Of a stretch of 54,245 nt of DNA, positions 4,114-51,820 are shown piece after piece. Numbering within the stretch: position 1 is the first letter of the stretch; every line of letters starts with the position of its first letter. Position numbers and translations under genes: made by a program. Source of the DNA: Gemmatimonadota bacterium (GTDB lineage: Bacteria > Gemmatimonadota > Gemmatimonadetes > Longimicrobiales > Gaopeijiaceae); contig JAPPGM010000048.1 in the NCBI GenBank assembly GCA_028874995.1, positions 1-54,245 on the forward strand, written 5' to 3'. The notes beneath the pieces are model-generated. The model saw only the letters and a list, made by a program, of their open reading frames with translations. It did not search any database and had not been told where the DNA came from.

Positions 4114-4114
4114 C

Positions 4115-32635: not shown

Positions 32636-33346
32636 TCACACCTCCCCACCCCCCCGCGCCAACACCCCCGTCACATTCGCCACCGCAAAGCTGATTCCGT
32701 GCAGATTGCGTTCCACCGGCACCCCCGGGATCGGCCTCGGATACGGCGATCCAGCCACCACCCCGTCCCCCCCCTCCCCCCGCACCTCCACGCAGTCGCG
32801 CGGCAAGTCCTCATCCATCACCACCCCCACCGCCGAATCGAGCGACCCCGGCCACCACATCTGCCCACCGGCCTCCGCCGCCCCCACAACCACTCCCCCC
32901 ACCTCCGCCAACCTCCCCACCGCCCCCTCCAGCAACCCCGCGTGCTCCTCGCGAACCGTCCCTAGGCTCAGGTTCACGATCCGGATCGCCCGCTCCGCCG
33001 CCCAGTCGATCGCGGCCACCAGCGTCCGCACGCTCGTCCTGAGCCGGTCGTCGAAGACACGGACCGCGAAGATCTCCGCCTCGGGCGCCTTCTCCTGAAT
33101 GGCCGCGAAGACCGCCGTGCCGTGACCCAGCAGGTCCACGAAGTCCTCCGAGACATCGCCCGACAGGCCGATCGTCACTCCGCCCGCCACGGCGCTGACA
33201 TGGGGGTGCTCCGGGTTCACCCCGCTGTCGATGACCGCGACCGAAACGCCGCGTCCCCGAAGGTCGCGCATCCGGGGGGACTGGATGCAGATCCGCCCCG
33301 GCGGATGGAGTCCGGGCGTGGATTTGCGCGGGTTTTCGAAGGTCAT
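32636..33346 (-). CDS. qhpE: Subtilisin-like protease, QhpE type
   Basis: 236 residues from the ATG at 33346. The catalytic triad is visible: Asp40 in VAVIDSGVNPEHPHV, His75 in DLLGHGTAV and Ser219 in HGISFAVANVTG, in a small S8 domain with no propeptide or signal. Compactness, the HPHV and GHGTAVFAAIQEKAPEAEIFAVRVFD blocks and proximity to a QhpF-like exporter point to QhpE, the cytosolic protease that removes the leader from the cross-linked QhpC precursor. The usual oxyanion-hole Asn is not obvious (GAAEAGGQ). qhpC itself lies 17 kb away. Confidence 0.7.
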   Translation of the reverse strand: MTFENPRKSTPGLHPPGRICIQSPRMRDLRGRGVSVAVIDSGVNPEHPHVSAVAGGVTIGLSGDVSEDFVDLLGHGTAVFAAIQEKAPEAEIFAVRVFDDRLRTSVRTLVAAIDWAAERAIRIVNLSLGTVREEHAGLLEGAVGRLAEVGGVVVGAAEAGGQMWWPGSLDSAVGVVMDEDLPRDCVEVRGEGGDGVVAGSPYPRPIPGVPVERNLHGISFAVANVTGVLARGGGEV

Positions 33347-33865
33347 CGGATCGGCATCATTCCATCGCTGGAACTTTTTCGAGGGACCGTGGTAATAGCG
33401 CACATACGCGTGATGATCGCCATCGGCGGGGAACGGTGGCAATCGGTCGCGAACAGCAGGACGGGCAGTACTCGCCTGGTTGGCAGGGGCGGCTCTCGTG
33501 GTGGGCTGCGGGATGCAGTGATGGGGCTGACGATCCGTCCCCTGTCAACCAGGCGTTTTTCCTGCTCGCGATTCTCGGGATTCGACCGTCGGCGCGCAAG
33601 CCCGCGAAGCCCGACAACCCCTTGGTGGGGCGCCGCTTCCAGCGGTGGGTGCCAAGGCTGGACTGGCCGGGAATCGATGGGGTGGCCGAGGTGATCGATG
33701 TGCGCACACGTCGTTGGGTTGCCCGCACCGTGAACGATGAAGTGTTGTGGGGGACGGGCGACGAATCCCTGCTGTACACGATTCGGGAAGACGGCCTGAT
33801 GCCGCGCGCTGCGCTCTTTGCGCCCTCGGTGGCCGGGGAGGCGCGTTCCGGGAGGCCGCCAATAA
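33347..33865. other. Gap between qhpE and qhpF
   Basis: 520 bp without a convincing minus-strand gene. A plus-strand frame is listed separately. This is where a further qhp gene might once have stood; nothing recognisable remains. Confidence 0.4.
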
Positions 33866-33951
33866 CTACGGGGCGCCCCGATTCCCGGCAGGCGCGAACA
33901 TTTCCACCACCCTCCCCCCCTCCAGCACCACCACCCGGTCCGCCGACCTGA
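33436..33951 (+). CDS. Uncertain plus-strand frame between qhpE and qhpF
   Basis: 171 residues from a GTG at 33436. The middle (RRFQRWVPRLDWPGIDGVAEVIDVRTRRWVARTVNDEVLWGTGDESLLYTIREDG) reads like real protein with GC-rich third positions, but the final 35 residues are proline-rich and overlap the qhpF 3' end. It may be a degraded or shortened gene. No family recognised and no ribosome site seen. Confidence 0.3.
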   Translation: MAIGREQQDGQYSPGWQGRLSWWAAGCSDGADDPSPVNQAFFLLAILGIRPSARKPAKPDNPLVGRRFQRWVPRLDWPGIDGVAEVIDVRTRRWVARTVNDEVLWGTGDESLLYTIREDGLMPRAALFAPSVAGEARSGRPPITTGRPDSRQARTFPPPSPPPAPPPGPPT

Positions 33952-35560
33952 CCACCTCTTCCCGGTGCGAGATCAACACCGTCGTCCGCCCTTTCATCAC
34001 CTCCGCGTAGGCCGCCACCACCGTCGCCTGCGCCTCCGCGTCCAGCGCGCTCGTCGCCTCGTCCAGCACCAGAACGGCCGGATCGGCAAGCAGCGCCCGC
34101 GCGATCGCCACGCGCTGACGCTCCCCCGCCGAGAGCGCCCGGCCCTCTTCGCCCACCACCGTGTCGAGCCCGTCCGGGAGCGACGCGACGAAATCCCCCA
34201 GCCCCGCCCGCTCCACCGCCCGCGACACGGCCCCCCGGTCCGCCTCCGGACGCGCGTACCGCACGTTCTCCAGGATCGAGGTGTTGAAGACGAAGGTGTC
34301 CTGCGCCACCACCGCCACCTGCGCCCGGAGCTCCGCCAGCGCGACGTCGCGCAGGTCGGTGCCGTCGAGGAGGACACGGCCGCGGTCGGGGTCCAGGTGG
34401 CGCACCAGCAGGTCGGCGACGGTGGACTTGCCGCTCCCCGACCGCCCCGCCAGCGCCACCACCTCGCCCGGCGCGACGGTCAGCGCGAAGCCGTCCAGCA
34501 CGTCGGCGCCGCGGCCGTGGCCGCACGACACGTCCTCGAAGACGATCTCGCCGCGCACGGGGCCGAGGGGGACGGGCGCGGCCGGGTCCTCCACCTCGAC
34601 CGGCTCGTCGAGCAGTTCGTGCACGCGCCTCAGCGACACCCGCGCGGCCCCGAGTCCCGTGTAGAGCCCCATGAGACCCTGCACCGGACCGATCAGGCGG
34701 ATCTGGTAGGCCATGAAGGCGGTGAAGGTCCCGAGCGTCATCGCCCCGTCGATCACCCGCGACCCGCCGTAGAGGAAGACCACCGCCGTGCTGGCCGAGA
34801 GCAGGATCCCCGGCAGTCCCCCGGCCAGGTAGCTGAGGCGCTGCATCTTCATGAGCGCGGACACGAAGGCGTCGTTCAGCCGGCTGAAGCGCGCGGCCTC
34901 GCGTTCGCCCGCGTTCGCCGCGGCCACCAGGCGCGCACCGCGCAGCGTCTCGATCAGGAAGGCGCCGATCCCCGCGCTACGCTCCCGCATGACGCGCACG
35001 CGTACCACCAGGCGGCGCCGGTACGCCACGATCGCCCAGATCGCGGGGGGCAGCAGGGCGGTGGCGGCCAGGAAGAGCCGCCAGTCGAGCCAGAGCAGCA
35101 TGCCCACCGCGCCCGCCAGGAAGGCCACGTTGCCGAGCCACGCCAGCGCCGCGTCGGCCAAAACCCGTTGAATTTCGCTCACATCGTTGTTAATTCGTGA
35201 AATTATTTCACCAAGTGGCGTTTTTGCGAAAAACCGTGGCGAGAGGCGGTGCAGGTGGCGGTAGACGGTCACGCGCATGCGGAAGAGGATCTCGGCCGAG
35301 ACCTTCGTGTAGCGCATCCCGCTGACGAAGTTCAGAACGAAGCTGGCCGCGGTGACGAGGACGAAGAGGACGACGACCCGCTTGAGCGCGTCCATGTCCG
35401 CGCCGAGGAGGGCGTCGTCGACCAGGGTGCGGGTGAGGAAGGGGACGTAGAGGGCGAGCGCAGTGCCCGCGAGGTTGAGGAGGATGATGACCGCGAGGCG
35501 GCCCTTGAAGGGGACGATGTAGGCGAAGCCGCGGCGGATTTCGGGGTCGAGGATGGCCAT
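33866..35560 (-). CDS. qhpF: ABC transporter (fused permease-ATPase), QhpF type
   Basis: 564 residues, ATG at 35560. The first 310 residues are a six-helix exporter domain (VIILLNLAGTALALYVPFLTRTLVDDAL onward), the rest an ATPase with Walker A GRSGSGKST, signature LSAGERQRVAIARALL, Walker B VLVLDEATSALD and switch His in VLISHREEVV. This is a type I half-exporter. In qhp loci such a protein, QhpF, exports the processed QhpC peptide to the periplasm; that assignment rests on the neighbouring qhpE and on the qhpBC genes further upstream. Confidence 0.75.
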   Translation of the reverse strand: MAILDPEIRRGFAYIVPFKGRLAVIILLNLAGTALALYVPFLTRTLVDDALLGADMDALKRVVVLFVLVTAASFVLNFVSGMRYTKVSAEILFRMRVTVYRHLHRLSPRFFAKTPLGEIISRINNDVSEIQRVLADAALAWLGNVAFLAGAVGMLLWLDWRLFLAATALLPPAIWAIVAYRRRLVVRVRVMRERSAGIGAFLIETLRGARLVAAANAGEREAARFSRLNDAFVSALMKMQRLSYLAGGLPGILLSASTAVVFLYGGSRVIDGAMTLGTFTAFMAYQIRLIGPVQGLMGLYTGLGAARVSLRRVHELLDEPVEVEDPAAPVPLGPVRGEIVFEDVSCGHGRGADVLDGFALTVAPGEVVALAGRSGSGKSTVADLLVRHLDPDRGRVLLDGTDLRDVALAELRAQVAVVAQDTFVFNTSILENVRYARPEADRGAVSRAVERAGLGDFVASLPDGLDTVVGEEGRALSAGERQRVAIARALLADPAVLVLDEATSALDAEAQATVVAAYAEVMKGRTTVLISHREEVVRSADRVVVLEGGRVVEMFAPAGNRGAP

Positions 35561-35591
35561 GCACCACATTCGGCAGGTGGCGCGGTTCTGG

Positions 35592-36887
35592 CTAGCCGCC
35601 CCGCCGAATCCGGTAGGCCTCCACCCTCTCGGAATCGAACCGGTCCCGTCCCACGACCAGAAGGAAGTCCCTGTCGATCCAGCAGACGAACAGATGGCCG
35701 CGGCACAGGAAGAACACCGGTACGTCCTTGGCCAGGACACCGAGCCATCGCCCATCCGGACCGAAGATGCTCCATTGATCCGCCGCCCACGTCTCCGAGT
35801 CGGAATACTCGCTGACCCACAGATACCCCTCCGCATCTACCATGAGACCGTCGATCGGCGGATAGGTCTGCACGCTCCGCATCGCCTCGAGTTTGCTTTC
35901 CGGAAGCGAAAAGCCCTGCGACTCGTAGAACCTGGCATTCCGATCTTCCCATGCCCTCCTTGCCTTGTCGGTTACGCGGAAAGGATCGGTCGTGCGCCTA
36001 ATGATCCTGAGCAGGACGCCATCGGGCGAGAACTGGTGGATCTCGTTCCGGTCGCCGCGGCTGACGTAGATCGCAGGGGGATCGCGTCGCGTTGCGATGA
36101 ACCTGGGGCACGCGAACGAGTGGGCCCTGTAGGTAGTGTCGACTCTGAGGAATTCGTCGGCGGGGTCCTCGCTCACCTGCGCCTCGTCGAGGATCTCGCC
36201 CCTCATCGACACCCGAATCCTGTCCCAGCGCCGTGTCGGCGAACAGTCGCTCCACGCCGGCTCGGCCTCGGATTGCCGGCCCGTCTTCGACGATACGAAC
36301 GATCCATCGCTTAACGGGAAGCGGAAACTCTCGCCCCAGAGGTCGTGCTCCCTCAGCCTCAAGTGGTCTACGGACCGTTCTTTCAAGAGCGTGCCGGCCG
36401 TATTGAAGTAGTCGATCGACGTCATGTGGTAGTCCCACACGACCAGCGTGTCGGGCGGCAGGTACTGGAGCTTTTCCGGACGGGTGAACTCGCCCGGGCC
36501 ATCGCCTGCCCGGCCGATGATCCGCGACAGCTCGCCCGAGGGTTCGAAGAGCAGGAGCTGCTGGTTCTCGGACGACAGGACCGCCACGCGGCCGTCGGGC
36601 AAGCGCACCAACCCCACCACCCGCCAGATCAGCTGGGCGGAATCGTCGGCCAGCGCGTCGATATCCTCCACCCCGCCCAGTACGAACTCGGGGTCCGGAT
36701 CGATGGTCCAGAACCGCCCTGCAGCGTGTTCCGGCGCGTGGTTCTCGACGATTTCGACGCCGGCGGAATCCCACACGGTGAAGGTCGGAGCTTCGGCGGA
36801 ATCACTTCCGTCGCCGGGCATGCGGTCGCACGCCGACACGGTGATCGCCACCGCCACGGTGGCACGGAAGGCAGGGCGGCAACGCAT
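35592..36887 (-). CDS. Six-bladed beta-propeller lipoprotein (subfamily B, copy 1)
   Basis: 431 residues, ATG at 36887, lipobox Cys20 (TVSAC). Subfamily B is marked by DSAGVEIVENHAPEH, FWTIDPDPEFVLGG, the blade motif RAGDGPGEF, LQYLPPDTLVVWDY, the IIRRTTDP segment, and a C-terminal VEAYRIRRGG. It ends 31 bp before qhpF, so it may share a transcript with the exporter. Role unknown. Confidence 0.85.
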   Translation of the reverse strand: MRCRPAFRATVAVAITVSACDRMPGDGSDSAEAPTFTVWDSAGVEIVENHAPEHAAGRFWTIDPDPEFVLGGVEDIDALADDSAQLIWRVVGLVRLPDGRVAVLSSENQQLLLFEPSGELSRIIGRAGDGPGEFTRPEKLQYLPPDTLVVWDYHMTSIDYFNTAGTLLKERSVDHLRLREHDLWGESFRFPLSDGSFVSSKTGRQSEAEPAWSDCSPTRRWDRIRVSMRGEILDEAQVSEDPADEFLRVDTTYRAHSFACPRFIATRRDPPAIYVSRGDRNEIHQFSPDGVLLRIIRRTTDPFRVTDKARRAWEDRNARFYESQGFSLPESKLEAMRSVQTYPPIDGLMVDAEGYLWVSEYSDSETWAADQWSIFGPDGRWLGVLAKDVPVFFLCRGHLFVCWIDRDFLLVVGRDRFDSERVEAYRIRRGG

Positions 36888-36921
36888 CACGAGTCTCCTC
36901 TGGCTGTGTCCCGGCGGACCG

Positions 36922-38223
36922 TCAGTCCCTCTGTTCAATGAACCCATGGAGCACCACCGACTCCACATCGAGTTCGTCCCTGACCCGCAGCAGCACATGG
37001 TCGTCGCCGATGTCCAGGATTCTCGCGCCGCGGGGCAGGTCCATCGTGGCCTCGAGGGAGCCGGAGGGTGTGAACGCGAGCCACGTCGCGGAGGATGCGC
37101 CCGGCGGCACGAACTGCTGGACCCAGAGCAACCCGTCGCTCCCGACCTGAAACCCCTCGTAGGACCGCGCCGTGTCGGGGTAGGGGAACTGATCCGCGGT
37201 CCGGCGGTGTTCCGCAATGGACTGGTCATCGTAACTGCCCCGCGAAAGCCGCTCCTCGATCCAGGTCTTCTTGAGGTCGTCCGTGACCGGAACGCGCGGT
37301 GCCGTCCACCGAATGATGGTCTTGAGTTGGCCCGTCCGATTCAGCACCTCGATCTCGGGCCTGCCTCCCTCGCCGACCGCAACCGCCGATCCCCATGCCA
37401 GGGCCAGGCCGTGCGGGGCGAACGGAACAGCGGTCGTCCCGTTCATCGGCCCGATCTCCGTCTGCATCTCGACCCGAGCGAGGCTGAGGCCGGGCACGCG
37501 ACCGATGGCACCCTCGTATTCACCGTCCTCCCCGAAGGTGTGCATGACGAGAGTCTCCCTCCACGACTGGTTGCCGGAATACACGACAATCCCCCGGTCG
37601 TCCACACCCGCCGGCTCCGGGCGGTCGCGTATCTCCACCATCAGGTAGCCGCGGTCGAACCTCCCGGCAAGCCGCGGTCCCGGCGTCAGCGCTCCCGTCT
37701 CCAGGACGTGCGTACCCACCATCGCGCCCGAGGAATCGAAGACCCTGACACGGCGGACTCGGTGGTCCCAGGTCTCCACGCGCCCGCCGCTCAGGGCGAA
37801 GATCTCGAAGAGCCTGGCGCAGGCCCCGGCCGAAAACTCGTCGGGGCCCTCACCCTCGCGCCCGGCCCCCGTCAGGTAGACCCCGGAGGTGTCGTACCAC
37901 CTGAGGATGGGCGGCAGACAGTTGGACACGACGATTTGCCCGTTGTCGAGGAGCCGGGCGCCGGAGACATCGTAGAAGAGGTAGGCGGTATCGCCGCTGA
38001 CGACTCCGATTCGCGTCCGCGGTTCGTCGGAGAGGACAAGGCGCGCCGGCGGCGTATGCGAGACCACCACGGTGATGCCCGCGCTGTCGTAGCGCTGTGC
38101 GGGGACGATCTCGACGGGCGGGTCGCCACACCCGGCGGCCGCCGTCGAGGCCACGGCCAGAGTGAACAGCCCGCGCGCCCGCATGACCATCACGGCGGCG
38201 TCGTTCGGTCGCTGGCACATCAT
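36922..38223 (-). CDS. Six-bladed beta-propeller lipoprotein (divergent, subfamily D1)
   Basis: 433 residues from the first of two adjacent ATGs (38223), which has GGAGG seven bases upstream. Lipobox Cys32 (TAAAGC). It keeps the GREGEGPDEF motif and a VTDDLKKTWIEERL segment analogous to subfamily B, but otherwise its blades differ. It lies 34 bp upstream of the subfamily B copy 1 gene and is probably co-transcribed with it. Function unknown. Confidence 0.82.
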   Translation of the reverse strand: MMCQRPNDAAVMVMRARGLFTLAVASTAAAGCGDPPVEIVPAQRYDSAGITVVVSHTPPARLVLSDEPRTRIGVVSGDTAYLFYDVSGARLLDNGQIVVSNCLPPILRWYDTSGVYLTGAGREGEGPDEFSAGACARLFEIFALSGGRVETWDHRVRRVRVFDSSGAMVGTHVLETGALTPGPRLAGRFDRGYLMVEIRDRPEPAGVDDRGIVVYSGNQSWRETLVMHTFGEDGEYEGAIGRVPGLSLARVEMQTEIGPMNGTTAVPFAPHGLALAWGSAVAVGEGGRPEIEVLNRTGQLKTIIRWTAPRVPVTDDLKKTWIEERLSRGSYDDQSIAEHRRTADQFPYPDTARSYEGFQVGSDGLLWVQQFVPPGASSATWLAFTPSGSLEATMDLPRGARILDIGDDHVLLRVRDELDVESVVLHGFIEQRD

Positions 38224-38321
38224 GCTTCTGCCTCCGTGGGTCTGACGCACCGCCCTTGGTCCCATTACTTGGAGAGGCGTGCTCCCCGCCCGGGTTGTCT
38301 TCCGGCGCGTCGCCGTCCTCG

Positions 38322-39620
38322 CTATCCATCCCGCCGAACGCGGTACCCCTCGACCCGTTCCCGGCCCAGCTCGTCCCTTCGCACGACTAGAAAGTAGTCC
38401 TTCCCCACCCGGCAGTTGGAGGTAGCCCGCGCACACAGGCCCACATCCGGAGCCGCGGGATCCGGCGGGAAGGCCAGGACTCCCAGCCATCGCCCCTCCG
38501 GGCTGAAGACGCCCCACTGGTCCGGTATCCCGGACTCCGAAGCCGACCACTCCCTGACCCAGAGGTAGCCGTCGGCGTCCACCAGGATGGACTCGATCGC
38601 GGGGTACTTCTCCCTCCTGGGAATCGGTTCGTCGTCTTCGGTTTGCGGGGGCCAACCGTCCATTGCACGGTTCCGGGTCCGATGAGCCAACTCGGCCTCC
38701 CACGCCTTGTCGGTCACCGGCGGCGGCTCGGTCGTGCGCCGGATGATGCGCACCAGCGTACCGTCCAGCGACCACTGCCGGATCTCCACGTGGTCGTTGC
38801 TGATGTAGACAAACGGGGGATCGCCGCCCGCCGCCACGTGAGTCCCATATGGCCTGGCACAGCCGAATGAGTGCGCGGCGTAGGCGTCGTCGATTCGCAG
38901 GAGTTCTTCGCCATGCACTGTCACTCCTTCGGCCCGAAGCGGGCTGCCCATCAACGCCCAGGACAGACCGTGCGCCGCCAGGTGAGAGCAATCGCCGGGG
39001 GATTCGTCAGCGGTCAGGTCCGGGACACCCGCCAGGAAGGACCCGTGCGGCAGGGGGAGCCTGAGCGATTCCGCCCCGGCCCCGTGCACGCTCATCCTGG
39101 CGAAATCGAGCGAACGCTCCTTCAGGAGATTCCCATCGGGATCGAAGTAGTCGATGGACGACAGGAAGTAGTCCCATACGACCAGCGTGTCGGGCGGCAG
39201 ATGCTGGAGCGCCAGCGGGTGGGTGAACTCGCCGGGGCCTTCTCCCGGTCCACCGATGATCCGGGACAGTTCGCCCGAGGGTTCGAAGAGCATGAGTTGA
39301 CGGCTCCCGGAAGATAGGACCGCCACTCGGCCGTCGGGCAAACGCGCCAGTCCCGCCACACGCCAGATCAACTGCGCCGAATCATCGGCCAGGCCGCTCA
39401 GGTCTTCGGACCCGCCGAGCACGAACTCCGGCTCGGGGTCGACGGTCCAGAAGCTCTCGGCGGGATGCTCGGGGGCGTGGTTCTCGACGATCTCGATGCC
39501 GGCGGAATCCCGGACGGTGACGGTGGGGTTTTCGGCTGTGTCACCAAAGGGCGCCCGGTCGCACCCGAACACGGCCGGCGAGATCGCGAGGGCAACGGGA
39601 AGGGTCAGTCGTTCGAGCAT
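38322..39620 (-). CDS. Six-bladed beta-propeller lipoprotein (subfamily B, copy 2)
   Basis: 432 residues from the ATG at 39620, behind GGGAGG; an upstream GTG would lengthen it by 10. Lipobox Cys20 (AVFGC). It carries DSAGIEIVENHAPEH, FWTVDPEPEFVLGG, GGPGEGPGEF, HLPPDTLVVWDY, IIRRTTEPPPVTDKAW and the ending VEGYRVRRDG. It follows the 168-residue membrane protein gene by 30 bp, a pairing repeated at 42948-44755. Confidence 0.86.
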   Translation of the reverse strand: MLERLTLPVALAISPAVFGCDRAPFGDTAENPTVTVRDSAGIEIVENHAPEHPAESFWTVDPEPEFVLGGSEDLSGLADDSAQLIWRVAGLARLPDGRVAVLSSGSRQLMLFEPSGELSRIIGGPGEGPGEFTHPLALQHLPPDTLVVWDYFLSSIDYFDPDGNLLKERSLDFARMSVHGAGAESLRLPLPHGSFLAGVPDLTADESPGDCSHLAAHGLSWALMGSPLRAEGVTVHGEELLRIDDAYAAHSFGCARPYGTHVAAGGDPPFVYISNDHVEIRQWSLDGTLVRIIRRTTEPPPVTDKAWEAELAHRTRNRAMDGWPPQTEDDEPIPRREKYPAIESILVDADGYLWVREWSASESGIPDQWGVFSPEGRWLGVLAFPPDPAAPDVGLCARATSNCRVGKDYFLVVRRDELGRERVEGYRVRRDG

Positions 39621-39650
39621 CCGCAACCTCCCTGCCGCGAAACAAGACAT

Positions 39651-40157
39651 TCAGAAGCGAAGCGACACCCCCAACCCGAGCTGCCCGTTCGGCGTGACCG
39701 ACAGGGCGAGGCCCGCGTCGTCGAGGTTGAGACGCCTCCGGTAGAACGCATTGGTTCTGTTTGCCAGCCTCCACGCAGAAACAGATGCCCAAATGCGACT
39801 TCCGTAGAACACTGCGACACCGGCAACACCCACGATGGTTTCCACAGTGCACGGATCGTGTCGGCAATCAGGGTGGTTCGCAACGAAGCCGGCCGCGAGC
39901 CATGTGATCGCTCCTCCCGCCGTCAGCCAGGCCGCCAGCTTGCCCGCATCCCGATCGCCCGCGTAGTCGTAGCCGGCAGTGGGAATGATCAATTCGAGCG
40001 TTGCAGCGAGGAACGGGCTCTTCTTCATGTCCTCATAGCGTTCCTCGGGACTCTTCTGGGGGGGCCGCACGATAGTCGGTCGCTGGGCGTGGACCTGGCC
40101 GGCATGGCCGAGGAGAGCGCCGAGAACGAGCAGGGAGGTGACGTAACGGTGCTTCAT
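39651..40157 (-). CDS. Small exported membrane protein paired with propeller (copy 1)
   Basis: 168 residues, ATG at 40157. A signal peptide ends near LGHAGQVHAQ. The mature start RPTIVRPPQKSPEERYEDMKKSPFLAATLELIIPTAGYDYAGD is followed by two or three hydrophobic segments and an ending SVTPNGQLGLGVSLRF that looks like a beta strand. It resembles small DUF5683-type membrane proteins only loosely. It is close to the 44249 gene, and both precede a subfamily B propeller gene. Confidence 0.75.
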   Translation of the reverse strand: MKHRYVTSLLVLGALLGHAGQVHAQRPTIVRPPQKSPEERYEDMKKSPFLAATLELIIPTAGYDYAGDRDAGKLAAWLTAGGAITWLAAGFVANHPDCRHDPCTVETIVGVAGVAVFYGSRIWASVSAWRLANRTNAFYRRRLNLDDAGLALSVTPNGQLGLGVSLRF

Positions 40158-40334
40158 CTGCGAATCTCCTGCCGTTCAAGCTCCCATCCCGGTGCGCTTC
40201 TTTGCACCCCCTCCGCGAGCAAACGTGCACCTCCCGGGTTCCAGCGGCAATGGTCCGCCTCCCCTGTGTGGCCCGTCTTCGGGTGCTACCCTGAGCGTTT
40301 GCTTCGGACGAATAGTGCTGCGAGCCTTGTAGCC

Positions 40335-41576: not shown

Positions 41577-41585
41577 GAGGCTCCC

Positions 41586-42866
41586 CTACGTCCGCCGCCG
41601 AATCCGGTACCCCTCCACCCTCTCCACCCCCAGCTCGTCGCGCCTGACGGCCAGGAAGTAGTCCCTTCCCACCCAGCAGGGGGTGGCGTCCCGACCACAC
41701 ATCTGATAGTCCGGCGCCCCGGGATCCGGCGGGAAGGGCAGCACGCCCAGCCATCGCCCATCCGGGCTGAAGACGCTCCACTGGTCCGGAATCCCGGACT
41801 CCGACGCCGACCACTCCTTGACCCACAGGAATCCCTCCGGACTCACAAGCATGGATTCGACCGAGGCGTACTTCTCCCTCCTGGGTACCGGCCCTTCCTC
41901 TTCCGGTCGCGGCGGCCAGCCCATCATTTCCCGATACGCCTCCAGGTGCGCCAGTTCGGCCTGCCACGCCTTGTCGGTGACGGGCGGCGGCTCGGTGGTG
42001 CGGCGAATGATCCGCACAAGCGTACCGTCCATCGATCGCTGATGCACCTCGTTGCCGCCGTTGCGGATGTAGAACGAGGGGGGATCGCCTCCCGCGGCCA
42101 GCAGGCTGAAGAAACTGCTGGAGCATCCGAACGGGTGCGCGGCGTAGCTGTCGTCGATCTTCAGGAGTTCTTCCGCGTGCAGGACCATCTCCCCGAAGCG
42201 GGCGGACTGGCTCGTGACCGTCAGGTGGGTGCAATCGTCCGGGGATGCGTCGGCAATCGTGTCCATGACCCCGACCAGGAAGGACCCGTCCGGAAGCGGG
42301 ATCCTGCGCGACTCGCCCCAGGCGCCGAGGTCCCTCAGCCTGGCGTAGTCGACCGTGCGTTCCCTGAGCAGCTCGCCGCTGGAATCGAAGTAGTCGACCG
42401 CCCTCAGAAAGTAGTCCCACACGACCAGCGTGTCGGGGGGCAGGTACTGCAGCCGTTCCGGCCGGGTGAACTCGCCGGGACCCTCGCCCGGCCCGCCTAC
42501 GATCCTGGCCAGCTCTCCCGAAGCTTCAAAGAGCATGAGCTGCTTGTTCTCGGAGGACAGGACGGCCACCGTGCCATCCGGCAGCCGCGCCAGTCCGACC
42601 ACGCTCCAGATCAGTTGGGCCGAGTCGTTGGCGAGTTCGCCCGGGTTCTCGGACCCTCCCAGTACGAATTCGGGTTCCGGGTCGATGGTCCAGAACTCCC
42701 CGTCCGCGTACTCGGGCGCGTGGTTCTCGACGATTTCGACGCCGGCCGAGTCCCAAACGGTGAAGGTCGGATCCGCCTCGGCCGCGCTGTCGTCCGCGGG
42801 CCGTTCACAACCGGACGCGGCCAGGGAAAGGGAAAGAGCGGCGACAATGGTCACTTGCCTGAACAT
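41586..42866 (-). CDS. Six-bladed beta-propeller lipoprotein (subfamily B, copy 3)
   Basis: 426 residues from the ATG at 42866, preceded by GGAGA. Lipobox Cys20 (AASGC). It shows DSAGVEIVENHAPEY, FWTIDPEPEFVLGG, GGPGEGPGEF, YLPPDTLVVWDY, IIRRTTEPPPVTDKAW and a final VEGYRIRRRT. Closest in sequence to copies 2 and 4, from which it seems recently derived. Convergent with the D2 gene, whose stop is 9 bp away. Function unknown. Confidence 0.86.
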   Translation of the reverse strand: MFRQVTIVAALSLSLAASGCERPADDSAAEADPTFTVWDSAGVEIVENHAPEYADGEFWTIDPEPEFVLGGSENPGELANDSAQLIWSVVGLARLPDGTVAVLSSENKQLMLFEASGELARIVGGPGEGPGEFTRPERLQYLPPDTLVVWDYFLRAVDYFDSSGELLRERTVDYARLRDLGAWGESRRIPLPDGSFLVGVMDTIADASPDDCTHLTVTSQSARFGEMVLHAEELLKIDDSYAAHPFGCSSSFFSLLAAGGDPPSFYIRNGGNEVHQRSMDGTLVRIIRRTTEPPPVTDKAWQAELAHLEAYREMMGWPPRPEEEGPVPRREKYASVESMLVSPEGFLWVKEWSASESGIPDQWSVFSPDGRWLGVLPFPPDPGAPDYQMCGRDATPCWVGRDYFLAVRRDELGVERVEGYRIRRRT

Positions 42867-42947
42867 TCGCGGTCTCCTGTCCAAAATATGACTAGATAAT
42901 CTGACTAACTTTAGCACCTCTACGGTTCCCCGAAACACGTCAAGAGG

Positions 42948-44240
42948 TCACGAGCCCGATTCCGCGCCCGCAGATCCTGCTTGCCCGCGCCGAATCCGGT
43001 ACCCCTCCACCCTCTCTCTCCCAAGCTCATCACGCCGAATCATCAGGAAATAGTCCTTTCCCACCCAGCAGGGGGAGAACATCGAGCAGAGGTCAAGATC
43101 CGTCGGCTCCGGATTCGGTGGCAGCGCGAGGGCGCCGAGCCACCGTCCCTCCGCATTGAACACACTCCACCGGTCGGGTAGGCCCGACTCCGAATCCGAC
43201 CACTCGTTGACCCAGAGATAGCCTTCGGCATCCACGAGAAGAGCTTCGATCGCGGGGTATGCCATCCTCCTGCGGGGTTCGCCATCGCCTCCCATCCACA
43301 TTGGCCCGCTCAGCGCTTCCCTTGATCTCTCCCGGGCTTCCAACTCCGCCGCCCACGCCTTGTCGGTGACGGGCGGCGGATCGGTCGTACGCCGAATGAT
43401 CCGCACCAGAGTACCGTCGAGCGATCGCTGATGCACCTCGTCGCCCGTGTTGCTGATGTAGACCGACAAGGGATCGCCACCCACCGCCATGCGAGACCCG
43501 GGGCGGGAACACCCGAACGGGTGGGCAGCGTAGGCACCGTCGATCCTGAGGAGCTGTTCGCCGGGCACGGTGATTTCGTCCTGACCGGCGAAGCTGACCT
43601 TGGTGTCCAGGTGGGAGCAATCCTCTTGCGGCCGGCCGGCAGCTCTTTTCCTGACTCCGATCAGGAATGACCCATCCGGAAGGGGAAGCCGAAACGGGTT
43701 TTCATAGGTGGCCCCGTGCTCCATCAGCCCGGCATAGTCGACCGACCGCTCTCCGAGCACCGTCCCGGCGGTGTCGAAATAGTCGATCGATGCCCCGAAG
43801 CGCTCCCACACGACCAGCGTGTCGGGCGGCAGATACTGCATGAGTTCCGGTATGCCGAACTCGCCCGGGCCCTCTCCCGGGCGGCCGATGGTACGGGACA
43901 GCTCTCCTGAAGGGTCGAAGATGAAGAGTTGCTTGTTCGAGAAGGAAAGTGTCGCCACCCTGCCGTCCGGAAGCCGTGCGATTCCGGCCGTCCAATCCAA
44001 CCGGGCGGAGTCGTCGGCCAGCACGAATTCGGGCTCGGGGTCGATGGTCCAGAACTCCCCGGCGGGATACCTCGGGGCGTGGTTTTCGATGATTTCGATG
44101 CCCGCGGAGTCCCGGACGGTGAAGCCGTGATCTTGGACGGCCAGACTCTCGTCCCGTGATGCGGAGTCGCACCCGGACACGATGACTGCAATCGTCACGA
44201 CTGCGCTGACCGTCGTCCCCCGGAACTTGGCGAGCGTCAT
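42948..44240 (-). CDS. Six-bladed beta-propeller lipoprotein (subfamily B, copy 4)
   Basis: 430 residues, ATG at 44240, eight bases after the stop of the 168-residue protein gene. Lipobox Cys24 (IVSGC). Motifs are DSAGIEIIENHAPRY, FWTIDPEPEFVL, GRPGEGPGEF, YLPPDTLVVWE, IIRRTTDPPPVTDKAW and VEGYRIRRGQ. The blade after PEFVL is shorter than in other copies, with the GGSED-type linker deleted (VLADDSARL). Function unknown. Confidence 0.86.
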   Translation of the reverse strand: MTLAKFRGTTVSAVVTIAVIVSGCDSASRDESLAVQDHGFTVRDSAGIEIIENHAPRYPAGEFWTIDPEPEFVLADDSARLDWTAGIARLPDGRVATLSFSNKQLFIFDPSGELSRTIGRPGEGPGEFGIPELMQYLPPDTLVVWERFGASIDYFDTAGTVLGERSVDYAGLMEHGATYENPFRLPLPDGSFLIGVRKRAAGRPQEDCSHLDTKVSFAGQDEITVPGEQLLRIDGAYAAHPFGCSRPGSRMAVGGDPLSVYISNTGDEVHQRSLDGTLVRIIRRTTDPPPVTDKAWAAELEARERSREALSGPMWMGGDGEPRRRMAYPAIEALLVDAEGYLWVNEWSDSESGLPDRWSVFNAEGRWLGALALPPNPEPTDLDLCSMFSPCWVGKDYFLMIRRDELGRERVEGYRIRRGQAGSAGAESGS

Positions 44241-44248
44241 TGCGCTAA

Positions 44249-44755
44249 TCAGAAGCGCAGCCGCACTCCCAACCCGAGTTGCCTGCCCGGCGTGACCGAC
44301 AGGGCGAGCCCCGCGTCGTTCAGACCGAGACGCCTCCGGTAGAACGCATTGGTCCGTCTTGCGAGCCTCAAGGCCGAATCGAACGCCCAAACGCGACTGC
44401 CAATGATAGCCATCGCGCAAGTCTTGACTGTAATCTCGCGCCCCCAACAGCGCGGTTTGTCCCTCGTACAGTGGTGTCCGGTCATTGCAGTGGCCCAGAA
44501 GATGACCGCCGCCGCACCCATCAGCCCGGCCATCGGCTTTCCCCCATCCTCGTCGCCGGCATACGCGTGGCCCACGGTGGGGAGGATCAGCTCGAGTGTT
44601 GCGGCGAGCCACGGACTCTTCTTCATGTCCTCGTAGCGTTCTTCCGGACTCTTCTGCGGGGGCCGCACGATCCTGGGTCGCTGGGCGTGGAGTTGGTCGG
44701 CATGCCCGAGCAGGACACCGAGAACGAGGAGCAAGTTGATGTGACGGTGCTTCAT
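44249..44755 (-). CDS. Small exported membrane protein paired with propeller (copy 2)
   Basis: 168 residues, the same length as the 39651 gene. Signal peptide to about LHAQ; RPRIVRPPQKSPEERYEDMKKSPWLAATLELILPTVGHAYAGD is nearly identical, while the middle differs and adds cysteines (HHCTRDKPRCWG). The end SVTPGRQLGLGVRLRF is conserved. Its pairing with a subfamily B propeller immediately downstream repeats the 38322-40157 module. Confidence 0.75.
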   Translation of the reverse strand: MKHRHINLLLVLGVLLGHADQLHAQRPRIVRPPQKSPEERYEDMKKSPWLAATLELILPTVGHAYAGDEDGGKPMAGLMGAAAVIFWATAMTGHHCTRDKPRCWGREITVKTCAMAIIGSRVWAFDSALRLARRTNAFYRRRLGLNDAGLALSVTPGRQLGLGVRLRF

Positions 44756-44864
44756 GTGCGAAACTCCTTCCGTTCCAGCTCCCATCCGGGGTGGAAAACG
44801 TGCCCCCACCGGCTTCGAACGGCAACCACCCGTCTCCCAAGTGGGGGCGAGCGGGTCGAGAGAA

Positions 44865-46005
44865 TCAGTTGCCCGGCAAACTGTAGCGTTCCAGAAACGC
44901 CTGGTCGACATCGTTGAAGGCGACCACATAGACCGATTCCGCCCCGAAACCCGCCACGCGCCGGTCTCCGTCAGCGACCAGGCGGAGCACCAGACGCCCC
45001 TGCCGGTCGAAGACGTCATAGGGGCTGTCGCCGCCGCCCGCATCGTGGCGGAGCACCCAGGCCCGGTCCATAGGGTCGACATGAACGGTCTGGTAGTGGA
45101 AGGCCGGCATCACCTCCGGCCATTGGTCGCTGTCGTAACTCAGCTGTTCCGTGTCGGGATTGCGTCGGTAGGGAATGAAACGCGTGTCGCCGGTCGGACC
45201 GAAAACCCCGCGAATGGCCCGGGAGTGGCGCTGGAGGTCGCGAAAGAACTCTTCCATGAGCGTCTGGGTGACGGGGATGGCGGCGAACGCCACGGTGTCG
45301 CCGTGAAGCACCGAGCCGCCGGGCGAGATCCAGTCGACGCCGTAAAGCGTCAAAGCGTGCCACAACGACCGATCCGTCGGCGGCCACACCCCAGGCATCG
45401 TGCGGCATCAGCGTACCGGCCCACTTCGTCTTGATGGTCCGGAGACTGTCGACCGTTTCGCGTGCCGGATCGACGCGCAGGATCGTGGCGGTGTCGGCAC
45501 CCGTCGGAGGCCACGGCTCCGGTGCGACATAGATGTGTCCGCGAGCGTCCACTGCGTGGGGTGCCGCCAGCAGGACGCTCCCCCCTTCCGGATGCACGGT
45601 GATGGACTGCGTGGCCGCGACTTCCAGGTTTGGCGCAAGCCGCATCAGGCGGCCGTTGCCCAGGTCCACCAGCAGCGTTGAGTCGCCCGGCAGCGGCCAG
45701 ACGGCATCCGGCTCGAGGTATTCGTCGGGCCCCTCCCCCCGTCCCCCCACCGTCGTGCGCGTCTGCGCCTCCATGTCCACGCGATAGACGGCCCTGTCGA
45801 ACAGGTCGGCGAGCAGGACGTCGCCGCCGGGCAGCTCGCGCACCACGTGCAGATATCCGAACGCCTCGGGGAAGACTGCCGTGGGCGGTCCGAGTGGTGC
45901 GCGCGGCTGTTCCGCAACCTCGTCTTCGGCGACGTCGCCGCACGCAAGCCCGCAGGCGAGCGATATGGCCACCACCATTCGACGCCAGAGTATCGTTGAA
46001 CCCAT
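44865..46005 (-). pseudogene. Frameshifted beta-propeller lipoprotein (subfamily C, copy 1)
   Basis: The gene starts at ATG 46005 with a lipobox Cys22 (CGLAC) and reads RGEGPDEY and HDAWGVAADGSVVVAR, then shifts frame. One extra T in a run of three (plus-strand A at 45344-45346) breaks it; after that point the other frame continues with YGVDWISPGG, HYQTVHVDPMDRAW, DVFDRQGRLVLRLVADGDRRVAGFG to the stop at 44865. The intact paralogue at 47433 shows the expected unbroken order. Either a genuine recent inactivation or a sequencing error. Confidence 0.8.
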
Positions 46006-46051
46006 GTCGGGGCCTTTCCAGCCGGGGTGAGTCGACCGTCCGCCCTGGTCC

Positions 46052-47377
46052 CTAGTCCGCCCGCCGAATCCTGTACCCCTCCACCCGCTCCACGCCATAG
46101 TCGTCGCGCCTGATCGTCAGGAACATGTCCCGGTCCACCCAGCAGGGCACCATGTACTTGTAACACGTGAAGAGATCCGAGAGCGCGGGTTCCGGCGGCA
46201 CGGTGAGGATTCCCAGCCAGCGTCCCCACGGACTGAAGACGCTCCACCGGTCCGGCCATCCGGTCTCCGACTCCGACCACTCCCTTACCCAGAGATAGCC
46301 TTCCGCGTCCACGACGAGTCCGCCCACCGCCGGATACGACTCCTTGCGGGGCATCCCGTCGAAGACGCCCGGAGGCAGAGGCTCGCCGATCACTTCGCCG
46401 AACGCGTACATGTCATCCATCCACGCGCCGTGCGATCTGTCGGTTACGGCCAGCGGATCGGTCGTTCGCCGGATGATGCGCAGCAGCTTGCCGTCGAGGG
46501 CGAACTGGAGGATTTCGTTGCGGTCGCCCTCGCTGATGTAGACCGAGAGCGGATCGCCTCCGACCGCGATGTGGGAATCGAGTGCAAAGGTGGGGACGAA
46601 GGGGATGCCGAAGTCGGAATCGATGTCCATCTCCGGAACCCACATCTCCATCCCTGCCCATTTCCCGAAGGATTGGATGCCGTATTCATCGTCGACCCTC
46701 AGGTATTCTTCGGGCATGAATCTGAACGTGCTGCCGGGCATCGGTTCGCCGAGCTCCCTGGCCGCCTCCGGGTCACCGCGACCCACGATAAAGGACCCGT
46801 CCGGAAGGGTCATTCTCATGGACTCGCCGGACGCGCCGGGCACGCGCTCCATCAGGACGGCGTGGTCGATGGTCCGTTCCCGCAGCAGCGAACCTTCGGT
46901 ATCGAAATAGTTGATCGAGGTCATGTGGTAGTCCCAGACGACCAGCGTGTCCGGCGGAAGGTACTGCAGCCGTTCCGGCCGCAGGAACTCACCGGGACCC
47001 TCTCCCGCACGTCCGATTGTGGCGGACAGCTTGCCGGAAGCCTCGAAGAGGAACAGCGCCCGGCCCTCGCCGGAGAGGACCGCCACCCTGCCGTCCGTCA
47101 AGCGGGCGATTCCGACCACATCCCAGATCAGCTGTGCCGAGTCGTTCGCCGCGCCGCGCGGGTTTTCTTCCCCACCCAGCACGATCTCGGGCTCGGGGTC
47201 GACCGTCCAGAACTGCCCGGGCAGGTGTTCGGGCGTGTGGTTCACAACAATCTCGACGCCCGCGGAGTCGTGGACGGTGTAGCCGGTGCCGTTGGCGCCG
47301 GGCACCGCAGGCCGGTCGCAGGCCGCGGCGGTGATCGCCATCGCGCAGACGGTGGAGAGGGCGGTCGGCTTGTTCAT
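46052..47377 (-). CDS. Six-bladed beta-propeller lipoprotein (subfamily B, copy 5)
   Basis: 441 residues, ATG at 47377, with lipobox Cys20 (TAAAC). It keeps DSAGVEIVVNHTPEH, FWTVDPEPEIVLGG, GRAGEGPGEF, YLPPDTLVVWDY, IIRRTTDPLAVTDRS and VEGYRIRRAD. It is about ten residues longer than its relatives, with an extra loop around MWVPEMDIDSDFGIP. It sits between the two subfamily C genes. Function unknown. Confidence 0.86.
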   Translation of the reverse strand: MNKPTALSTVCAMAITAAACDRPAVPGANGTGYTVHDSAGVEIVVNHTPEHLPGQFWTVDPEPEIVLGGEENPRGAANDSAQLIWDVVGIARLTDGRVAVLSGEGRALFLFEASGKLSATIGRAGEGPGEFLRPERLQYLPPDTLVVWDYHMTSINYFDTEGSLLRERTIDHAVLMERVPGASGESMRMTLPDGSFIVGRGDPEAARELGEPMPGSTFRFMPEEYLRVDDEYGIQSFGKWAGMEMWVPEMDIDSDFGIPFVPTFALDSHIAVGGDPLSVYISEGDRNEILQFALDGKLLRIIRRTTDPLAVTDRSHGAWMDDMYAFGEVIGEPLPPGVFDGMPRKESYPAVGGLVVDAEGYLWVREWSESETGWPDRWSVFSPWGRWLGILTVPPEPALSDLFTCYKYMVPCWVDRDMFLTIRRDDYGVERVEGYRIRRAD

Positions 47378-47432
47378 CGGGGGGACTCCCTGTGGTGTAC
47401 GTGGATGATCGGTGGAATGTGTCGTGAAAGGG

Positions 47433-48728
47433 TCAACCACCCGGCAGCCGGTGGCGTTCCAGGAACACGCGGTCGAGGTCGTCGAAGGCCGCGACGTAGA
47501 CGGCACCGGCCCCGAACCCCACCACTCGCCGGTCGCCGTCCGCCACAATCCGCAGCGCGAGCCGTCCCTGGCGGTCGAAGATGTCGTAGGGACTGTCGCC
47601 CCCGGCCGAGTCGTGGCGGTGCACCCAGGCGCGGTCAAGCGGGTCGACATGGACGGTCTGGTAGTGGAAGGCCGGCATCACCTCCGGCCAGAAATCCCGG
47701 TCATACTGTGCCGGCTCCAGGTCCGGATTGCGTCTGTAGAGAATGAAGCGCGCGCCGGCGGCACCGATGACCACACTCCGAATGACCCGGGAGTGGCGCT
47801 GGAGGTCACGATAGTACTCGGCCTTCTCGGCAGTGGTGACGGGGACCGGGTCATAGGGCACGGTGTCGCCGCGGATCACCGAGCCATCGGGCGAGAGCCA
47901 GTCCACACCGTACGCGTCGGCCCGCGCCACGACGACCGAACCGTCGGCGGCCACACCCCAGGCGTCGTGCGGCATGAGACCTCCCGCCCACCTGGTTCTG
48001 ATGGTGCGTAGGCTGTCGACCGTTTCGCGCACCGGATCGATGCGGAGAATCGTGGCAGTGTCGGCCCCGGTAGGGGGCCACGGCTCCGGTGTGGTGTAGA
48101 TGTACCCGTGACGATCGACGGCGTGCGGCACCGCCAGCACCATGCTTCCCGCCTCGGGACGGACGGTCATGGAGCGGGTCGCTCCGAACGCCAGATCCGG
48201 CCCGATTCTGACCAGGCGTCCGCGGCCCACGTCGACCAGCAGCGTGGAGTCCCCTGGCAGCGGCCACACGGCGTCCGGTGCGAGGTATTCGTCAGGGCCC
48301 TCTCCCCGTCCCCCCACCATCGTGCGGGTCTGCGTCGCCATGTCCACGCGATAGATCGCCTCGTCCAGCAGGTCGGCGACGAGGACATCGCCGTCGGGCA
48401 GCTCGCGCACCGAGTGCAGGTACCCGAATTCACCCGCGAAGACTGCCGTGGGCGGGCCGAGTGGTCCGCGAGGCGGCTCGTCGATCCGGCGTTCCATGAC
48501 GCGGTCTGTGGCAACATCGGCGCAGGCGGGAGCGCACAAGAGGATTGGGGCAACTGCGATTCCAAGCCGCCTGGCCGCCGATTTCAGCGCCGACGATGAC
48601 CGTGATTCGCGGCCACTGCCGGGTCCGTCGCTGTGGAAAAGGGGTCGCTTGCTGATCGGATGGACTCCCTGCCAACAGTGGGGACGTGTCCGGCGCGCCG
48701 GGCACCGGGCGGGGGGGGACACCACCAT
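47433..48728 (-). CDS. Beta-propeller lipoprotein (subfamily C, copy 2; start uncertain)
   Basis: From ATG 48728 the frame encodes 431 residues, but the signal peptide (LGIAVAPILLCAPAC) lies about 60 residues in, which is odd. A CTG at 48587 would place it at the N-terminus and give 384 residues; the 5' end may also hide a frameshift. The body shows GPLGPPTAVFAGEFGYLHSVRELPDGDVLVADL, GGRGEGPDEY, WPLPGDSTLLVD, and the ending FLERHRLPGG shared with the broken copy. Function unknown. Confidence 0.7.
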   Translation of the reverse strand: MVVSPPARCPARRTRPHCWQGVHPISKRPLFHSDGPGSGRESRSSSALKSAARRLGIAVAPILLCAPACADVATDRVMERRIDEPPRGPLGPPTAVFAGEFGYLHSVRELPDGDVLVADLLDEAIYRVDMATQTRTMVGGRGEGPDEYLAPDAVWPLPGDSTLLVDVGRGRLVRIGPDLAFGATRSMTVRPEAGSMVLAVPHAVDRHGYIYTTPEPWPPTGADTATILRIDPVRETVDSLRTIRTRWAGGLMPHDAWGVAADGSVVVARADAYGVDWLSPDGSVIRGDTVPYDPVPVTTAEKAEYYRDLQRHSRVIRSVVIGAAGARFILYRRNPDLEPAQYDRDFWPEVMPAFHYQTVHVDPLDRAWVHRHDSAGGDSPYDIFDRQGRLALRIVADGDRRVVGFGAGAVYVAAFDDLDRVFLERHRLPGG

Positions 48729-48922
48729 GTCCAAGCAAGAACGGGACCAGCGCCGAGCCGGTCGGTAACCCGGCACAGGGCATCGAAGCCCGCGAATCGC
48801 TCGTTCGCAGCCACCCCGCCCGTCACACCTGTGTCCATCCTCCCACACCCCGTGTCCGTCCGGCCACAACGGGGCCCGCGGGCATTCGTCCCCCTCAGCT
48901 CTCTCCGGAATGTATACTGGAG

Positions 48923-48952
48923 ATTACATTATGGAAACTTGCCATTACATTA
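48923..48952. promoter_or_regulatory. Paired ATTACATTA direct repeats
   Basis: ATTACATTA occurs at 48923-48931 and 48944-48952, 21 bp apart (two helical turns), between qhpB and the subfamily C propeller gene and upstream of the latter. The first eight bases resemble one arm (ACATTACA) of the palindrome upstream of the molybdate regulator. Confidence 0.3.
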
Positions 48953-50050
48953 ACCCCCCGGCCCCGTCCCCTCCGGAATCATGATGAACGAGGTCATGTC
49001 CGCGTCGTACGCCACCGTGCGCAGGAACTCGTACGTGGCCGCGTCGTACACGTCGACTGTGCCGCCCGCGTTGTAGATGTACAGGAGCTCGCCGTTCGAG
49101 CTGACCTCCAAGCTCATCCGGGGCCGTCCCGCAAACCGCTGGCGGCTCTCCACCCGGCGGCCCTCAAGGTCGAAGGTCCAGAACTCGTAGTTCCCGATCT
49201 GCTGCACCAGCCCGTACCCCTTCCTGCCCCCCGGCGCCAGACGAAAGCTGACCCCCCGGCTTGGCCCCAGGGTGAAGAAGTCGAACTCCCTCTCGGCAAG
49301 GTTGACCCGCGCGATCCCCATGATGCGGCGGTTCTGCACCGGGTCCGTGAAGTTGAACAGCCCGGTGTGGATGCCCGGCTCGTCGTGCGAGCTGCGGGGG
49401 AAGCCGAAGCTGAAGCGGCCCAGCCCCTCCTCGAGCGGCCGGGACAGTTCCCAGCGATCCGCTTCCGTGTAGTTCTCCGTCTCCAGCACGAGAATGTCGC
49501 GGCCGAAGAAGTACAGGTACTCACCGTCGGGCGAGAACATGAGGCGCACCCGCTGGCGCTCCTCGCCGTCCGGCCACGGGATCGTGTCGGTGACCTCCTT
49601 CTCCTTCAGGTCGTACTTGAGGAGGACCGGATCGTCAATCTCCCAACGGTCGATCCGCTTCGTGTAGCGCATCGTGTTGAGGATGACGAACTCCTCCTGC
49701 GGGTCGACCGTCATCCCCCAGATCCGCACCTTCGACCGTCCCCGGCTCAGCGTGAAGCTGTCGATGGACTTGCGCGCGGCCACGTCGATGATCTCGATCT
49801 CCTCGAATTCGGCGTTGCGCAGGTAGATGCGTTCGTGGTTCTGCGATAGCGTTAGGCTGATGGGGATCCCGGTCGTCGTCTCGATCCGGTCGACTACCTC
49901 CAGCGTGCTCTCGTCGATGACCAGGATGGACCGGTCGTAGGCACCCATGTAGATGATGCCGTTGCCGCCGCTTTGGGCCTGGGCGGGTGGGGTGGTGAGG
50001 GTGAGGGCGGCGAGGGCCGCGGCCGCGAGCGGGGCGGAAGAACCCCTCAC
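48950..50050 (-). CDS. qhpB: Quinohemoprotein amine dehydrogenase beta subunit-like propeller
   Basis: 366 residues from a GTG at 50050, overlapping the qhpC stop by four bases (GTGA). A signal peptide is present (PLAAAALAALTLTTPPAQAQ). The mature part is a YVTN-like propeller: IIYMGAYDRSILVIDESTLEVVDRIETTTG, RSKVRIWGMTVDPQEEFVILNT, VRLMFSPDGEYLYFFGRDILVLE and ELLYIYNAGGTVDVYDAATYEFLRTV. In QHNDH the beta subunit is a seven-bladed propeller packed against the gamma subunit in the periplasm. Assignment rests on this fold and on the translational coupling to qhpC. Confidence 0.8.
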   Translation of the reverse strand: MRGSSAPLAAAALAALTLTTPPAQAQSGGNGIIYMGAYDRSILVIDESTLEVVDRIETTTGIPISLTLSQNHERIYLRNAEFEEIEIIDVAARKSIDSFTLSRGRSKVRIWGMTVDPQEEFVILNTMRYTKRIDRWEIDDPVLLKYDLKEKEVTDTIPWPDGEERQRVRLMFSPDGEYLYFFGRDILVLETENYTEADRWELSRPLEEGLGRFSFGFPRSSHDEPGIHTGLFNFTDPVQNRRIMGIARVNLAEREFDFFTLGPSRGVSFRLAPGGRKGYGLVQQIGNYEFWTFDLEGRRVESRQRFAGRPRMSLEVSSNGELLYIYNAGGTVDVYDAATYEFLRTVAYDADMTSFIMIPEGTGPGG

Positions 50051-50454
50051 GGGAAGATCAGGTCGATCTTGCGCCAGTCCTTCTGGGCGGACGCGCACTT
50101 CCCGGTCCAGTCGGGCGCGTGGTTCAGCTGGTCGGGGACGTGGGCGGGCCAGAAGCAGGCCAGGTGGCAGTCGAAGAGGTCGCGCTCGACGGGTTGGCAG
50201 AGGCCGGCGGTGCCGCCGGTGGAGTCGACCTCCCAGCCGGGGGCGAAGACGAGGGAGCAGCCGAGGGGGATGTGGGGGCCGGAGCGGCTTTCGAGGCCGA
50301 CGACGTCGAGGTCGGCGGAGGCGGCAGCGGTTGCTTCGGGTGAAGCGTCACCGTTTTCGGCGGGTGAGGGTGCCGCAGGCGTTACCGGGTCCGGCGTGCC
50401 CACATGCTCCTCAATCCGCCGGGCCTTCTGGTTGATGGCTTTCAGGTGGTCCAC
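50047..50454 (-). CDS. qhpC: Quinohemoprotein amine dehydrogenase gamma subunit precursor
   Basis: 135 residues from a GTG at 50454, behind GGAGGG. The core GCSLVFAPGWEVDSTGGTAG and following LCQPVERDLFDCHLACFWP match the CTQ-containing gamma subunit. Cys66, Glu75, Cys86, Asp92, Cys96, Cys100, Trp102 and Asp108 have exactly the spacing of the Cys-Glu, Cys-Asp and Cys-Trp cross-link residues of Paracoccus QHNDH (7, 16, 27, 33, 37, 41, 43, 49), so cofactor formation is intact in sequence. The leader keeps LKAINQKARR but is lengthened by about 30 Pro/Ala-rich residues. It acts in the periplasm to oxidise primary amines, with subunits not present here. Confidence 0.92.
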   Translation of the reverse strand: MDHLKAINQKARRIEEHVGTPDPVTPAAPSPAENGDASPEATAAASADLDVVGLESRSGPHIPLGCSLVFAPGWEVDSTGGTAGLCQPVERDLFDCHLACFWPAHVPDQLNHAPDWTGKCASAQKDWRKIDLIFP

Positions 50455-51762: not shown

Positions 51763-51820
51763 CTGCGGCCATCAACGCCTCACACAGGTGGAGACGGGAA
51801 TCGATCAAGGAGACACTCAC

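Follow-up and report, generated by a model that had tools for sequence, protein, structure and literature searches.

A quinohaemoprotein amine dehydrogenase gene cluster stretched by ankyrin-repeat and propeller genes in sponge-type Gemmatimonadota

In Paracoccus denitrificans and Pseudomonas putida, the genes for quinohaemoprotein amine dehydrogenase (QHNDH) form an operon, qhpABCDEFGR, of about 9 kb (PMC7876137). QhpD crosslinks the gamma subunit QhpC in these organisms, QhpG dihydroxylates a tryptophan, QhpE cleaves the leader and QhpF is the exporter; single-turnover maturases are said to fit with sharing an operon with their substrate (PMC7876137). Here we describe the qhp genes of a Gemmatimonadota metagenome-assembled genome (MAG; G000, 4.52 Mb, 191 contigs), starting from a window that is the whole of contig C30 (54,245 bp). 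The structural and maturation genes appear to be the same as in the Paracoccus and Pseudomonas operon, but in this lineage they spread over up to 50 kb, opposite-strand and mobile genes lie between qhpA, qhpD, qhpC and qhpF, QhpC has a longer leader linker and a fifth cysteine, and QhpB is divergent. We conclude, with a probability of about 0.9, that the genome encodes one complete, single-copy QHNDH set and that, within one subclade of the sponge-type Gemmatimonadota, an ancestral compact G-A-D-C-B-F-E cluster was stretched.

The closest sequences belong to compact qhpGADCBFE clusters from Gemmatimonadota and Acidobacteriota (e.g. loci L057, L070 and L102), in which gene order and strand are identical. 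Outside the genus of G000 such clusters have no insertions between qhpA and qhpD or between qhpD and qhpC, unlike the lineage studied here. A plasmid cluster of Leisingera caerulea, in a different phylum, has the same G-A-D-C-B-F-E order but is fully compact, with a four-cysteine QhpC and an adjacent AraC-family regulator, and A-D-C-B are likewise together in proteobacterial plasmid clusters. The closest named relatives of G000 are Gemmatimonadota MAGs, several of them apparently sponge-derived (a habitat inferred from the isolate series). A literature search on stretched operons and on ankyrin and propeller genes in sponge Gemmatimonadota gave nothing directly relevant.

Qhp components on two contigs

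The gamma subunit gene, qhpC, lies at 50047–50454 on the minus strand of the window. Its product matches NF037958 (117 bits, cut-off 50) and PF08992 (113 bits), and a profile search of the genome finds PF08992 in the window only. The alignment of QhpC with 1jju_C and 1jmx_G is free of gaps, and the protein consists of a leader (HLKAINQKA), a long low-complexity linker and a core that holds the crosslink residues and a fifth cysteine. The first-pass annotation had stated that every crosslink residue is present, and the alignment to 1jju_C bears this out: the equivalents of all six thioether partners (Cys7/Glu16, Cys27/Asp33 and Cys41/Asp49) are kept, as are Cys37 and Trp43 of the cysteine tryptophylquinone (CTQ).

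The other three qhp genes of the window are on the same strand. The divergent beta subunit gene, qhpB (48950–50050), overlaps qhpC by 4 bp and adjoins it in every relative; its product scores 43 bits against TIGR03907 (cut-off 223), and its identity rests mainly on this position. An ABC exporter of the MsbA-like type is encoded by qhpF (about 33866–35569); its Walker A, Walker B and signature motifs are all intact. The gene adjoins qhpB in compact relatives, and these qhpB-adjacent homologues are 42–98% identical to it, compared with about 27–34% for the remaining ABC proteins of these loci. The probable subtilisin-like leader protease gene, qhpE (about 32636–33346), adjoins qhpF as in compact relatives, and its product keeps the D/H/S triad and scores 147 bits against NF049966 (cut-off 165).

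No qhpA or qhpD is present in the window, as the first-pass annotation had reported. It left two explanations, that these genes are encoded elsewhere or that the enzyme has been rebuilt around a different catalytic subunit, and proposed a genome search for QhpA, QhpD and QhpG. QhpA, QhpD and a QhpG-like flavoprotein are found together on the plus strand of a 16.8-kb contig, C136, which supports the former explanation. The QhpG-like flavoprotein (194–1744), matched best by NF049967 (214 bits, cut-off 240) and weakly by 7ctq, is followed by the dihaem alpha subunit QhpA (2549–4282), with 464 bits against TIGR03908 (cut-off 274), all four QHNDH alpha domains (including PF09098) and two CxxCH motifs. 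Between qhpA and qhpD, which ends at about 16140, lie three ankyrin-repeat genes of opposite orientation (14608–4299). QhpD scores 487 bits against TIGR03906 (cut-off 453) and has a CNLACTYC motif and a C-terminal cysteine cluster; an apparent frameshift in it was ruled out, the interruption being a gap of 10 N. An AAA-ATPase/PDDEXK gene follows and continues past the contig end. Both qhpA and qhpD are single-copy, and the genome search finds one complete qhp set, with one dihaem QhpA, one QhpC and no second cluster.

C136 and C30 are almost certainly neighbours, because one contig of the relative G029, with the order ankyrin-D-ATPase-C-B-propellers, is collinear with the end of the one and then with the other. 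The G029 DNA matches C136 from 10845 right up to the contig end at 16820; 3.7 kb further on, the match resumes in reversed C30, at qhpC. A search with this G029 interval for a bridging contig gave repeats and paralogues only. We also observed a dispersed repeat of roughly 60–300 bp that in G029 lies immediately before qhpC (L151, 11901–12201); about 40 copies occur in G000, many at contig ends, and it probably causes assembly breaks.

Several points weigh against our interpretation. The join between C136 and C30 is absent from the MAG assembly, so that their adjacency depends on the relatives. QhpB, QhpE and QhpG score under the NCBIfam equivalog cut-offs, and the assembly gap lies near the 3' end of qhpD. 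No AraC-type qhpR turned up, although no search was aimed at it.

Gene order in relatives and the inserted genes

We located the seven Qhp proteins in 80 named loci and in the same-genus genomes, and name each interval between neighbouring qhp genes as a junction (A/D, D/C, C/B, B/F and F/E). Outside the genus, in Gemmatimonadota and Acidobacteriota, the G-A-D-C-B-F-E order is compact and nearly invariant, with at most 276 bp at A/D (59 loci), 318 bp at D/C (62 loci) and 249 bp at C/B (61 loci). Among the same-genus genomes, G030 has a cluster that is compact over its whole length, and nine others (G012, G013, G015, G017, G020, G023, G024, G027 and G032) have compact A-to-B or A-to-F stretches within the limits of their contigs. 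The F/E junction measures 5–14 kb in five of these (G020, G023, G024, G027 and G032), whose clusters are otherwise compact. By eye, it contains propeller, carboxypeptidase-regulatory-like and sigma-factor-type genes in G020, G024 and G032. The system has been lost in some congeners: G025 and G028 lack both QhpD and QhpA, and G031 has a QhpD fragment only (C202:76324–76773), with no match to QhpA or QhpC.

A/D, D/C and B/F are opened in one subclade of the genus and one further species, where order and strand are kept. A/D holds 3.9–17.5 kb of ankyrin genes in G000, G018, G019, G021, G029 and G033 (10.4 kb, on the opposite strand, in G000). D/C measures 1–24 kb in G018, G019, G021, G022, G026, G029 and G033, and B/F holds 5.7–13.4 kb of propeller genes in G000, G014, G019, G022, G029 and G033. 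The C/B junction is never opened, its gap being 12–322 bp in every same-genus genome. G033 is a complete chromosome (OX639991.1) and carries the stretched cluster in one piece on one strand; in the stretch analysed, QhpG lies at 1.88 kb and QhpE at 51.57 kb. The 'divided locus' of the first-pass annotation is correct as to separation, but its parts do not lie in unrelated places: this is one stretched cluster that has also been cut by a contig end. The relatives, whose gene order that annotation had proposed to compare, show a single collinear G-A-D-C-B-F-E cluster and give no support to a rebuilt enzyme.

In the window, qhpC-qhpB (50454–48950) and qhpF-qhpE (35569–32636), both on the minus strand, are separated by a propeller-filled gap of 13.4 kb, in agreement with the earlier description. 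The gap contains nine propeller genes and two copies of a 168-residue gene that accompanies them (44249–44755 and 39651–40157, both minus). The propellers of this junction are six-bladed and mostly PF17170-like lipoproteins. From qhpB towards qhpF, the minus-strand array begins with genes at 47433–48497 and 46052–47377, the latter six-bladed and PF17170-like, followed by a paralogue of the first (44865–46014) whose frame changes mid-gene in tblastn and which is probably a pseudogene or a sequencing error. Six-bladed propellers follow at 42948–44240 and 41586–42866. The array is then interrupted by a plus-strand propeller gene (40335–41576), present also in G014 and G029, before another six-bladed member (38322–39620), a divergent propeller (36922–38223) that, like its G029 orthologue, falls outside the main array clade, and a last six-bladed propeller (35592–36857) that ends 23 bp before qhpF. 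The part of D/C that lies in the window is on the plus strand. It comprises a membrane protein gene (50606–51319) divergent from qhpC and beside a PadR-family regulator (51316–51657; PF03551), as in G014 and G033, and two propeller-like genes, one (51788–52861) with same-junction homologues in G019, G022, G026 and G033 and the other (53102–54121) near the contig end.

In a tree of concatenated Qhp proteins, the stretched genomes form one nine-member group (93/93) plus G018, and parsimony gives two changes each for A/D, D/C and B/F. The main B/F propellers group in a single clade (95/95) that excludes their best matches from other places in these genomes, and therefore point to one founding insertion followed by tandem duplication and loss. 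At A/D, the close relative G014 has a 0.7-kb ankyrin remnant compared with 10.4 kb in G000, though assembly collapse in G014 is possible. The D/C gap of G033 contains IS110, IS21, DDE_Tnp_1_4 and rve-type transposases, and G000 has the empty site (3718/3723 of reversed C30) for a 9.5-kb block of G033 that is rich in insertion sequences (IS). The inserted families are amplified across the genome: with the product of the 38322–39620 gene as query, G000 yields at least 150 matches and G033 yields 146, versus 49 in G032, 34 in G018, 43 in G024 and 21 in G006, and Ank_2 has 69 and 37 matches in G000 and G033, versus 13, 17, 18 and 31 in the same four genomes. As controls, the nuo operon of G033, G029 and G019 and the atp operon of G033 and G019 align to G032 with no large insertions in the main operon block. 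The gene directly downstream of qhpE (29822–32320, minus) encodes a SIR2_2 and nSTAND_NTPase5 protein that resembles Avs-type anti-phage defence.

Alternative explanations

A propeller protein might have taken the place of QhpA, giving an enzyme with a different catalytic subunit. A window that lacks qhpA and qhpD and has propellers beside qhpCB would suggest as much, but the four-domain dihaem QhpA and QhpD are present in single copy on C136, relatives without the B/F propellers hold the entire enzyme, and the propeller family is spread through the genome in at least 150 matches; we consider this almost certainly wrong. It is highly improbable that the division is an artefact of assembly or binning. 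The contigs do belong to a MAG, and the repeat found beside qhpC of G029 is multi-copy and frequent at contig ends in G000. Only the contig break is artefactual, and not the insertions; the same stretched order recurs in several independent MAGs and in a chromosome assembled as a single contig.

Two further explanations accept the insertions and differ over what they mean. The locus could be a decaying relic broken up by them, as the losses in G025, G028 and G031 might indicate. We find this improbable: the genes retain undamaged reading frames and their catalytic residues, and relative to G033 the proteins are more conserved than the DNA (QhpB, 95% versus about 91%; QhpF, 94% versus 92%), the pattern expected under purifying selection. 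Alternatively, the intercalated propellers and ankyrin proteins could be working parts of the amine dehydrogenase, recruited and selected in place. The B/F array has a single origin and has been kept in two subclades, and several of its genes are co-stranded with qhpB and qhpF across short spacers. Recruitment is nevertheless unlikely, if the least so of these four alternatives. Compact congeners such as G030 lack such genes, content differs among close relatives, the array includes a frameshifted gene and one on the other strand, and the same families are amplified across the genome. We therefore favour a complete enzyme whose ancestral compact cluster was stretched. Locally amplified, unrelated genes would have inserted as ankyrin arrays at A/D, as IS, ATPase genes and propellers at D/C, and as a propeller array at B/F, with order and strand surviving and C/B staying closed.

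Maturation and expression from a stretched cluster

We infer the known maturation pathway for this lineage, since all of its components appear to be encoded, with their active-site residues kept. QhpD would form the thioether links in QhpC, QhpG would hydroxylate its tryptophan, QhpE would cut off the leader and QhpF would export QhpC, which would assemble with QhpB and the dihaem QhpA in the periplasm. CTQ formation and the oxidation of primary amines are accordingly predicted, putative properties of the enzyme in this lineage.

The gene layout, with 10.4 kb at A/D and 13.4 kb at B/F, indicates that A, D, C, B, E and F are not one contiguous operon. With the ankyrin array in the opposite orientation, qhpD is unlikely to be on the qhpA transcript, and a separate start for qhpF-qhpE is probable because the plus-strand propeller gene (40335–41576) intervenes; that gene also rules out a single long qhpC-to-qhpE operon as it stands. 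Read from this layout, three or more transcription units are likely for the qhp genes. Upstream of qhpC, a segment of about 70 bp is conserved in G000, G014, G029 and G033, beyond which the sequence differs, and this segment is a candidate promoter region.

The fifth cysteine of QhpC, C120, and Asp95, just before the CTQ cysteine, occur in all 111 relatives' QhpC sequences with a readable motif (L009–L117, Gemmatimonadota and Acidobacteriota, near-duplicate genomes included), and both are also invariant in 27 diverse ones. Both are absent from the QhpC proteins compared from Paracoccus, Pseudomonas, Cupriavidus and Leisingera and present in that of Novosphingobium RL4. QhpB of the genus has no cysteine and QhpA has the haem cysteines only, with one more near the N-terminus in some; C120 therefore has no obvious partner outside QhpC, and it is possible that it forms a fourth thioether crosslink. 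An AlphaFold2 model of QhpC (mean predicted local distance difference test score 46.8) is uninformative on a C120–D95 contact. In one QhpC (L053, from contig C605 of G026) tryptophan replaces the Cys27 equivalent (GLWQPVERD), a sequencing error or a lost thioether. We tentatively propose that maturation works although the genes for the single-turnover maturases (QhpD, QhpG and QhpE), the exporter and the substrate QhpC are spread over three or more units, with one-to-one supply of maturase and substrate not enforced by an operon, that some intercalated lipoprotein genes may belong to the regulon and that C120 could make a fourth thioether; this combination is doubtful as a whole.

The enzyme is of a known kind, and the layout of its stretched cluster is new. 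For MAG surveys, it cautions that 'missing' subunits of a cluster may stem from contig breaks and intercalation. The lineage is a natural experiment against the shared-operon argument of PMC7876137: the enzyme and gene order are the same, yet opposite-strand genes part qhpA from qhpD, and mobile elements also stand between qhpD and qhpC in G033. The locus also illustrates how a conserved cluster can be forced open by amplified propeller and ankyrin genes with only C/B left closed, and this suggests a specific constraint on expression of the gamma and beta subunits.

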